Origin: Alphaproteobacteria bacterium | GTDB taxonomy: Bacteria; Pseudomonadota; Alphaproteobacteria; UBA828 | DNA length: 64,000 nt | Direction of reading: 5' to 3' | NCBI GenBank assembly: GCA_022826665.1 | Contig: JAJDUK010000024.1 | Span: 1-64,000, forward strand | Shown here: positions 53,517 to 55,726 of the stretch, one piece after another | How the letters are laid out: each line of letters begins with the position of its first letter | Position numbering within the stretch: the stretch's first letter is position 1 | Position numbers and translations under genes: made by a program | The notes under the pieces: generated by a model | What the model was told of the DNA's origin: nothing | Database searches by the model: none | Seen by the model: the letters and a program-made list of their open reading frames with translations, nothing else

Positions 53517-54056
53517 TTATATGACACGCGGCGGCCGGCGCACCACCAGGCAGCGCGCCAGCATGTCGTGCAGGCCCTGCTTGCGGCGGGTGAAGGCGAC
53601 CGCGATACAGGCGGCGATGGCGGCAAATCCGACGACGTAATTCAGGCCCTCGACCATGCTGATAAGGCCGGGGAGCCAGAGCGGCCAGCAGCGGTAGATC
53701 GCCGTGAACTGCGAGATGCGCCCACCGTCGAGCCCCATCACTCGAAGGCCCAGCATGCGCTTGCCGACGGTCGCCTGCGCCCGGCTGCTCTCCTGCAGCG
53801 CCGTGTAGATGCCGAGCGCGATGCCGAAGACCACGGAGCCAAGCCAGGAGAGCGCGTAGCTCACCACTTCCAGCCGCGCGCCATCGCTCTCCGAGACGCG
53901 CGTCGTGGTCTCCACCAGGTCGGGCCACAGGAACGAGCCGACGAGGTAGACGCCCACCAGCACGATGATCGTGTCAATGACCCACGCCGCGACCCGCCGC
54001 CAGAATCCGGCGGGGATGACGCCGAGTGTGGCGCCCTCCGGAGTCTCGTCAGTCAT
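53517..54056 (-). CDS. RDD-family membrane protein
   Basis: A 179-residue inner-membrane protein with the RDD domain: FWRRVAAWVIDTIIVLVG near the start, QATVGKRMLGLRV and a second membrane pair before RKQGLHDMLARCLVV. The function is unknown, though RDD proteins have been linked to ion or sodium transport. The ATG has no obvious Shine-Dalgarno. A strong hairpin and a short leader ORF lie just upstream (54071-54101 and 54138-54212), which suggests leader-controlled expression. Confidence 0.85.
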   Translation of the reverse strand: MTDETPEGATLGVIPAGFWRRVAAWVIDTIIVLVGVYLVGSFLWPDLVETTTRVSESDGARLEVVSYALSWLGSVVFGIALGIYTALQESSRAQATVGKRMLGLRVMGLDGGRISQFTAIYRCWPLWLPGLISMVEGLNYVVGFAAIAACIAVAFTRRKQGLHDMLARCLVVRRPPRVI

Positions 54057-54070
54057 GGGCTCGGAACGTT

Positions 54071-54101
54071 GGAAGGGCCGCCCGGCTGGGGCGGCCCTTC
54101 C
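54071..54101 (-). promoter_or_regulatory. strong hairpin directly upstream of the RDD gene
   Basis: Perfect 12-bp arms GGAAGGGCCGCC and GGCGGCCCTTCC (54071-54082 and 54090-54101) around a 7-base loop end 15 bp before the RDD ATG. No T-run follows in the minus direction. A 6-bp hairpin GCGATC/GATCGC lies at about 54113-54128. The position suggests control of RDD translation or an RNA 3' end. Confidence 0.55.
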
Positions 54102-54137
54102 CCGTCAATCCGCGATCCGCAGATCGCGTCGTCACCG

Positions 54138-54212
54138 TCAGCCGTGGGCCCCATCGCAGGGGGAGACCCAGCTCGCGATGACCGCCGATCGCGGTTTAGG
54201 ACAGTCTGACAC
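54138..54212 (-). CDS. 24-codon leader ORF with near-perfect Shine-Dalgarno
   Basis: Reads GTG, then SDCPKPRSAVIASWVSPCDG AHG in short, ending TGA at 54138. The Shine-Dalgarno GAAAGGAGGTGATCC (about 54214-54228) is complementary over about 15 bases to the 3' tail of 16S rRNA, which is exceptional, with seven bases from GGAGG to the start. It may be a true small protein or a ribosome-capturing leader for the RDD gene. It has two cysteines. The family is not recognised. Confidence 0.45.
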   Translation of the reverse strand: MSDCPKPRSAVIASWVSPCDGAHG

Positions 54213-54246
54213 TGGATCACCTCCTTTCGTTGTTGACGACACTTCG

Positions 54247-54275
54247 TATATGGCGCGACCGTTCCAGCGGTGCAA
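54247..54275 (-). promoter_or_regulatory. predicted promoter of the RDD leader transcript
   Basis: On the minus strand a TTGCAC -35 (54270-54275) and a CATATA -10 (54247-54252) are separated by 17 bp. The start site would lie near 54240, about 12 bases before the Shine-Dalgarno of the leader ORF. It sits six bases below the stop region of the deaminase gene. The -10 is not canonical. Confidence 0.45.
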
Positions 54276-54281
54276 GCGCCA

Positions 54282-54752
54282 TCAAATTGTCGTGCGATCC
54301 CCGCTGTCCCACCACGCTCTGAACATGGCGTAGGTCTCGTCGCCCAGCAGGCGCCGGTAGGGCCGGCCACGTTGCTCGCTCGGAGTCGCGACCTCGCTAT
54401 CCAGCCCGTCGAGGTCGATGCCAAGGTCGGCCGCGTGGGAGAGGAGATTGCCGTAGAACACTTGGTCAATCCGCGCCCACCAGATCGCCGCCGCGCACAT
54501 GACGCAGGGCTCCCAGGTCGTGTAGAGGGTCGAGCCGGAGAGGTCCCAATTGCGTGTACGCTTGCCCGCATCGCGGATGGCGTTGATCTCGCAATGGCCG
54601 GTGGCGTCGCAGTTCTCGGCCACGTTGTTCCAGCCCTCGCCGATCACCTCGTCGTCCCGCACGATGAGCGTCGCGCAGTAGCCGCCTTCCCCCGTCGCCA
54701 TCTTCTCTTCGCAGAGCGCGATGGCACGCCGCATGTAGCCTTCGTGATCCAT
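54282..54752 (-). CDS. zinc-dependent nucleoside/nucleobase deaminase family protein
   Basis: A 156-residue CMP/dCMP-type deaminase fold protein. The zinc site is HCE in GHCEINAIRDAG and PCVMC in WEPCVMCAAAIWWARID, which together coordinate the catalytic zinc and proton shuttle. Family members include guanine, cytosine and tRNA adenosine deaminases. The ATG at 54752 has a GGAGGGG ribosome site; the longer frame is glycine-rich and rejected. It ends a catabolic gene series with an agmatinase-like and a creatininase-like enzyme. Confidence 0.82.
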   Translation of the reverse strand: MDHEGYMRRAIALCEEKMATGEGGYCATLIVRDDEVIGEGWNNVAENCDATGHCEINAIRDAGKRTRNWDLSGSTLYTTWEPCVMCAAAIWWARIDQVFYGNLLSHAADLGIDLDGLDSEVATPSEQRGRPYRRLLGDETYAMFRAWWDSGDRTTI

Positions 54753-54766
54753 GGTCCCCTCCCACG

Positions 54767-55726
54767 TCAGCGTTTGGCCTCGGCCACCGCCTCCGCCAGC
54801 ACGCACAGGATTTCGAACATCATGGTAGCCCCCACCAGCGCCGTGTTGCCGCTGGGGTCGAAGGGCGGCGCGACCTCCACCACGTCGCCGCCCACCAGGT
54901 TAAGCCCGCGCGTGGCGCGCAGCATCCGTTGCGCCTCGTGGGTGGAGAAGCCGCCGATCTCGGGCGTGCCGGTGCCGGGCGCATAGACCGGATCGAGCCC
55001 GTCCACGTCGAAGCTGATGTAGGTCGGGCCGTCGCCGACCACGGTGCGGGCCTCGGCAATCACCTTCTCCCAGCCGACATCGAAATACTCCTCGATGGTG
55101 ACGACGCGCATCCCCGAGTCGCGCGCGAAGTCCAGGTCGTGGAGGTCGTAGACCGAGCCGCGAATGCCGATCTGAATGGTGCGTTTCGGGTCCAGCAGCC
55201 CTTCCTCCACCGCACGGCGGAAGAGCGTGCCGTGGGTGATGGTGTAGCCGCCGAAGTAGCTGTCCCAGGTATCGGAATGGGCGTCGAAATGGATCATGCC
55301 GACCGGCCGGTCCCTGGCGATGGCGCGCATGATCGGCAGCGTGATCAGGTGGTCGCCGCCGGCCGAGAGCGGCACCGCGCCGGCCGCGTGCAGGTCAGTG
55401 AAAAACCGCTCGATGCGCCCGATCGTATCGTGCAGGTCGATTGGGTTGATGCTGGCGTCGCCGCAGTCGGCGACCCGGCAAAGCTCGTAGGGGCAAATGC
55501 CGAGGGTGTGATGGGTGCGCCGCATCAGGCTCGACATGTTGCGGATCTCGCGCGGGCCGTGGCGGGCGCCGGCGCGGTTGGTGGTGCCGTTGTCCCAGGG
55601 CACGCCCACCAGCGCGATGTCCACGACCGAGAAGTCCGTGACATGAGGCAGCCGCATGAAGGTCGGCATCGCGCTGAAGCGTGGCATGTCCATGCCGCTG
55701 ACCGGCTCGTAGAAGCCCTCGCTCAT
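54767..55726 (-). CDS. ureohydrolase family protein (agmatinase-like)
   Basis: A 319-residue manganese-type ureohydrolase. The metal-binding motifs are GGDHLITLP, HFDAHSDTWD and SFDVDGLDPVYAPG, present in full. The family splits urea or a guanidino group from agmatine, guanidinobutyrate, arginine or other guanidino acids. It lies 15 bp below the creatininase-like gene stop and 14 bp above the deaminase, so the three are one operon. The choice of guanidine substrate cannot be read from sequence. Confidence 0.88.
   Translation of the reverse strand: MSEGFYEPVSGMDMPRFSAMPTFMRLPHVTDFSVVDIALVGVPWDNGTTNRAGARHGPREIRNMSSLMRRTHHTLGICPYELCRVADCGDASINPIDLHDTIGRIERFFTDLHAAGAVPLSAGGDHLITLPIMRAIARDRPVGMIHFDAHSDTWDSYFGGYTITHGTLFRRAVEEGLLDPKRTIQIGIRGSVYDLHDLDFARDSGMRVVTIEEYFDVGWEKVIAEARTVVGDGPTYISFDVDGLDPVYAPGTGTPEIGGFSTHEAQRMLRATRGLNLVGGDVVEVAPPFDPSGNTALVGATMMFEILCVLAEAVAEAKR

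Follow-up and report, generated by a model that had tools for sequence, protein, structure and literature searches.

The locus considered here lies within a window of 64,000 nucleotides (the whole stretch of DNA that was analysed), and the question that it raises is what occupies the minus strand between the stop of a deaminase gene (54282) and the start of an RDD gene (54056). The first-pass annotation had described at this place a promoter, an unusually complementary Shine-Dalgarno (SD) sequence, a short ORF and two hairpins, and had read them as a designed leader and not a stray ORF, which could control the RDD membrane protein or encode a microprotein. The individual parts were all recovered and are listed below, each with the evidence on which it stands.

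54282-54767, minus strand: upstream gene, TadA/guanine-deaminase-type cytidine deaminase family protein; its end directly abuts the promoter of the RNA
54270..54275, minus strand: -35-like hexamer TTGCAC (sequence; TTGN peak in relatives)
54247..54252, minus strand: -10-like hexamer CATATA (sequence; ATATA retained in congeners)
54074..54235, minus strand: match to Rfam RF01867 (CC2171), model positions 1-159 (65.6 bits, E 5.4e-13)
54213..54227, minus strand: SD sequence AAAGGAGGTGATCCA (15 nt complementary to the 16S 3' tail)
54138..54212, minus strand: 24-codon ORF VSDCPKPRSAVIASWVSPCDGAHG (GTG at 54212, TGA at 54140-54138)
54167..54194, minus strand: 5' arm of the long hairpin, within the ORF (predicted fold; pairing in congeners; basal helix in relatives)
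54149..54162, minus strand: apical hairpin near the end of the ORF (predicted fold; pairing in congeners)
54117..54147, minus strand: 3' arm of the long hairpin, across the stop codon and the stretch beyond (predicted fold; congeners; relatives)
54071..54101, minus strand: 13-bp GC hairpin GGAAGGGCCGCCC-CAGCC-GGGCGGCCCTTCC, without a U-tract (sequence; terminator at the equivalent place elsewhere)
53517..54056, minus strand: RDD family gene, downstream neighbour outside the RNA (PF06271, E 5.7e-24)

A predicted free-standing unit with changing neighbours

The two promoter hexamers are separated by a spacer of 17 nt, and the transcript is predicted to start near 54240. A strict consensus scan of the window reported neither a promoter nor a terminator for the element, because the -10 hexamer ends in A (T is absent at position 6) and the hairpin has no U-tract; the reality of this putative promoter and terminator rests on their conservation. 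In a DNA search of 60 relatives the block of the element was 83-93% identical in congeners and the SD core was also found in other families of the class, where the matches carry the SD, a start codon, TC and a short ORF, with the exception of one that is antisense to a 16S gene. A scan of GTDB genomes gave at least 117 stretches, nearly all of them from Alphaproteobacteria by record title, and the exact motif is present in 25 of 47 alphaproteobacterial genomes versus 4 of the 103 genomes from elsewhere in the phylum. In the set collapsed to 71 lineages, the positions of a -35-like TTGN motif peak at 49-54 nt before the SD, a fixed distance kept in independent lineages that bears out the annotated promoter, and TATAAT-like hexamers occur near -28. 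Strict terminators about 165 nt on were detected in 54 of 157 elements, versus 0.7 in shuffled sequences, and the genus of the window retains the terminator hairpin without the U-tract. Judged from these signals, the element is a predicted free-standing transcript of about 160-165 nt that has a promoter and a terminator hairpin of its own, and the hairpin before the RDD gene, annotated earlier as 12 bp long, is the terminator hairpin of this RNA.

Two sets of records deserve mention beside this distribution. One genome (G033) carries two copies of the element, at C1:805104-805255 (+) and 2921849-2922077 (-). TTG-start versions with similar peptides occur in MAGs labelled Gemmatimonadetes (L046:7824-7981 (+) and L081); the first of these matches RF01867 at E 4e-4 and the second did not reach E 0.5, and it is possible that they are members outside Alphaproteobacteria or mis-binned contigs.

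The genes around the element differ between orders, and no single regulated gene was found to follow it throughout, as would be expected of a leader peptide or an attenuator. In Rhodobacterales arfB follows and a queuosine-precursor transporter precedes the element; in Sphingomonadales ilvE follows it, and in Rhizobiaceae and relatives acs precedes it (both genes named from their sequences). The Rhodobacterales position is a translation-related neighbourhood, with arfB, an alternative ribosome rescue factor (NF006718), about 200 nt past the SD (L039, L044, L056 and others). RDD adjoins the element only in the genus of the window; in the window, the RDD ATG at 54056 has no SD, as the annotation had pointed out. 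In this genus, a leader that allows ribosome-dependent read-through of the U-less hairpin into RDD could be envisaged: the element is always directly upstream of RDD in congeners that have this junction, and the hairpin lacks a U-tract. Against this, the distance to the RDD start varies from 171 to 201 nt, and the RNA occurs far more widely than the pair that it forms with RDD. Even within this genus such a role is very improbable, and as a general function it is not supported, given the restriction of the RDD linkage to one genus. From the earlier reading, the conserved transcript unit and the class-wide conservation of the start, frame and stop of its ORF stand, and the RDD leader role does not.

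Relationship to the CC2171 RNA family

The annotation had also suggested folding the leader with a covariance model, and this comparison identified the RNA: it matches Rfam RF01867 over the full length of the model. The family was named by a permissive Rfam scan of eight related loci and then of the window, and the element of the window is almost certainly a divergent homologue in this alphaproteobacterial family. An Rfam scan of the window with default thresholds returned no match, since the 65.6 bits of the element fall below the curated gathering score of 75 bits. This score is reached in 6 of 193 genomes of the class, versus 53 of 193 that have matches at E <= 0.01 in a search with the strict filter of the model, the weakest of which may be chance; the 75-bit cut-off therefore misses most clear homologues, and for this reason the copy in the window is called a divergent homologue and not a curated member. 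It is single-copy in its genome, where the next-best place for RF01867 scores 17 bits.

The window RNA resembles CC2171 in its overall layout, in the 5' block CAACAA..GAAAGGAGGUGAUCCAGUGUC present in its alignment, and in the 3' terminator hairpin. It differs in its score, in the missing U-tract, and in the closing helix CAUUGUC:GACAAUG, where two of the seven pairs are non-standard in the model alignment and which is absent in that form from the minimum-energy fold. The copy in the window is an ordinary, divergent member.

CC2171 is reportedly a Caulobacter sRNA from the work of Landt et al. in 2008, which PMC4117421 cites. Rfam classes it as an sRNA, and the Rfam entry as displayed contains no constraint on an ORF. 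Our search of the literature on the motif, CC2171 or RF01867 found no functional study. According to the main text of a Caulobacter study (PMC4117421), which does not give their names, two ncRNAs from tiling arrays are translated, and the other non-coding RNAs that it lists have no footprints, those two earlier predictions excepted. For Mesorhizobium, RNA-seq products were reported for 34 of 35 predicted non-riboswitch sRNAs, the missing one being MH_s6; the CC2171 member of that set is MH_s33 (PMC5596092).

The Shine-Dalgarno sequence, the reading frame and the hairpin

The usual 3' tail of 16S rRNA is UGGAUCACCUCCUUU; the assembly itself holds no 16S 3' end. Complementarity to this tail extends over the 15 nt of the SD, as the annotation had estimated, with a predicted duplex energy of -29.9 kcal/mol. 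The 14-mer AAAGGAGGTGATCC has one occurrence in the 4.6-Mb genome. Among 2390 large ORFs drawn from the related loci and the window, none has an SD with 14 or more matching bases; the maximum is 13 and nearly all have 8 or fewer. Across Alphaproteobacteria an SD of 13-15 complementary bases is retained, followed by a start codon; the loci were selected by SD plus TGTC, so these letters are conserved by construction, and no selection was made on frame or stop. In the window RNA the SD has a predicted accessibility of only about 0.5. Masking of the SD by an anti-SD within the RNA was considered and discarded, given that an anti-SD of at least 8 nt occurs in just 6 of 157 elements, yet this is above the 0.4% found in shuffles. 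One locus (L116:2580-2768, minus strand) has in its 3' arm GGATCACCTCC, which reproduces 11 nt of the 16S tail and could base-pair with the SD of the same RNA. In L036 and L037, from two species that share a genus, the sequence is AAGGAGGTGATCCATGTC, in which the gap from SD to start is one base shorter, possibly a variant spacing.

The GTG-start ORF of 24 codons that had been annotated belongs to a constrained class of reading frames. A stop within 14-36 codons is found in frame 0 in 97% of the 157 elements, versus 36% and 35% for the two remaining frames; for the 71 lineages, a set that excludes three loci judged to be false matches, the values are 99% versus 37% and 24%. In Rhodobacterales every one of the 19 ORFs is 18 codons long, and the stop site, beside highly variable codons, interchanges TAG, TGA and TAA at one position. 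In these 19 loci AGA arginine stands at codon 3 in 18 and at codon 8 in 13; AGA is a rare codon in Rhodobacterales-type genomes. The comparison of these elements shows a near-maximal SD near the 5' end followed by a putative ORF of 14-36 codons that is constrained in frame and stop and whose peptide is not conserved. An antisense-type sRNA in which the ORF is incidental would agree with the Rfam classification and with the CACCTCC-like stretches in some Rhodobacterales 3' arms; it leaves unexplained why a correctly spaced SD precedes a start codon and why different stop codons interchange at a single position, and is quite improbable. On these features the ORF of CC2171 is probably translated.

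Synonymous-site conservation, which the annotation had proposed as a check, gave no consistent excess in Rhodobacterales or Sphingomonadales; the dN/dS-like values of 0.63 and 1.13 are no better than those of other frames. Peptides are unrelated between orders and partially similar within them. The absence of a consistent synonymous excess indicates that the peptide is not conserved, and a microprotein with a conserved sequence is not supported, given also the unrelated peptides between orders. A related possibility is that the RNA is a small mRNA whose role is to produce, in high yield, a microprotein of 14-36 residues that evolves fast. The maximal SD, the conserved start, frame and stop and the within-order similarity of the peptides would speak for it; apart from the missing synonymous excess and the divergence between orders, the conservation within orders coincides with paired bases, and we regard this reading as unlikely. 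Constraint on frame and stop without a synonymous excess suggests instead that what evolution retains seems to be translation to a set length and not the sequence of the peptide.

The paired bases belong to a long hairpin: comparison among relatives shows that the ORF is its predicted 5' arm, the other arm lying between the region of the stop codon and the terminator. In Sphingomonadales the whole ORF is predicted to pair with the stretch from its stop to the terminator, and in an alignment of 16 species 91% of cells pair, with two-sided changes in 15 of 46 pairs, 8 of them in the ORF-3' helix and 7 in the terminator stem. The two-sided cells number 42, versus 14.5 in shuffled and 3-10 in slid alignments. 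The window RNA folds into a similar layout (fold z -2.2), which includes the small hairpin noted in the annotation. In its genus 95.9% of cells are paired, versus 34-47% when slid, with almost no variation, and helix 1 has 93.5% of cells paired (7 congeners); the covariation there was matched by 76 of 500 shuffles, the variation being too little for a test. In the wider group a basal helix is found again, built from other sequences, CCGCGATC:GATCGCGG in the window and CCGCGGTC:GACCGCGG in several other lineages; these come from a list of the single best duplex for each sequence, with no shuffled control. Against shuffles, the ORF-3' duplex has a mean z of -1.4 across 149 elements, strong in some lineages and weak in many. 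RNAalifold recovered little structure from whole-group alignments because MAFFT splits the 3' arm.

A possible mechanism and known systems

From this architecture we tentatively propose, with somewhat less than even confidence, that CC2171 is a regulatory RNA whose state is controlled by ribosomes translating it. The 15-nt SD would load 30S subunits almost whenever these are free; the ribosome would ascend the 5' arm, open the hairpin and halt near its tip. Ribosome traffic would then toggle the RNA between two forms, one closed and one open, the 3' arm being free in the latter. This switch could govern how stable the RNA is, through the access of double-strand nucleases, or whether its 3' arm pairs with other RNAs, or both. 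The broader proposal, in which CC2171 is a class-wide riboregulator that reads the supply of free ribosomes, with a near-perfect SD, an ORF hairpin that is melted, a 3' arm that is released or protected and a peptide that is irrelevant, is more doubtful. The length and the energy of the SD duplex would also suit a decoy that holds 30S subunits and lowers general initiation in some condition, the ORF serving merely for clearance; a set ORF length would be unneeded for this, yet the stop is constrained, and an abundance like that of rRNA would be required, which makes a decoy improbable.

The RNA family itself was already known; what appears to be new, from the comparison of its members, is that the ORF is constrained and situated in a hairpin arm. 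A family classed as small (non-coding) RNA appears to carry an exceptionally long conserved SD and a conserved frame without a conserved peptide; this bears on how alphaproteobacteria may sense the availability of ribosomes, and simple tests are feasible in laboratory strains of Caulobacter, Rhodobacter or Sphingomonas.

Among known systems, the dual-function or coding sRNAs rnTrpL of S. meliloti (PMC10117765) and Pos19 of Rhodobacter (PMC5036791) are likewise short RNAs with an SD and a small ORF; compared by layout alone, the RNA of the window type differs from them in that it does not conserve its peptide and uses the ORF itself as a hairpin arm. As in translation attenuators and leader peptides, the choice between hairpins would depend on a ribosome that occupies a short ORF; unlike them, the CC2171 RNA is not followed by a constant gene, and it commonly has a terminator of its own at its end.
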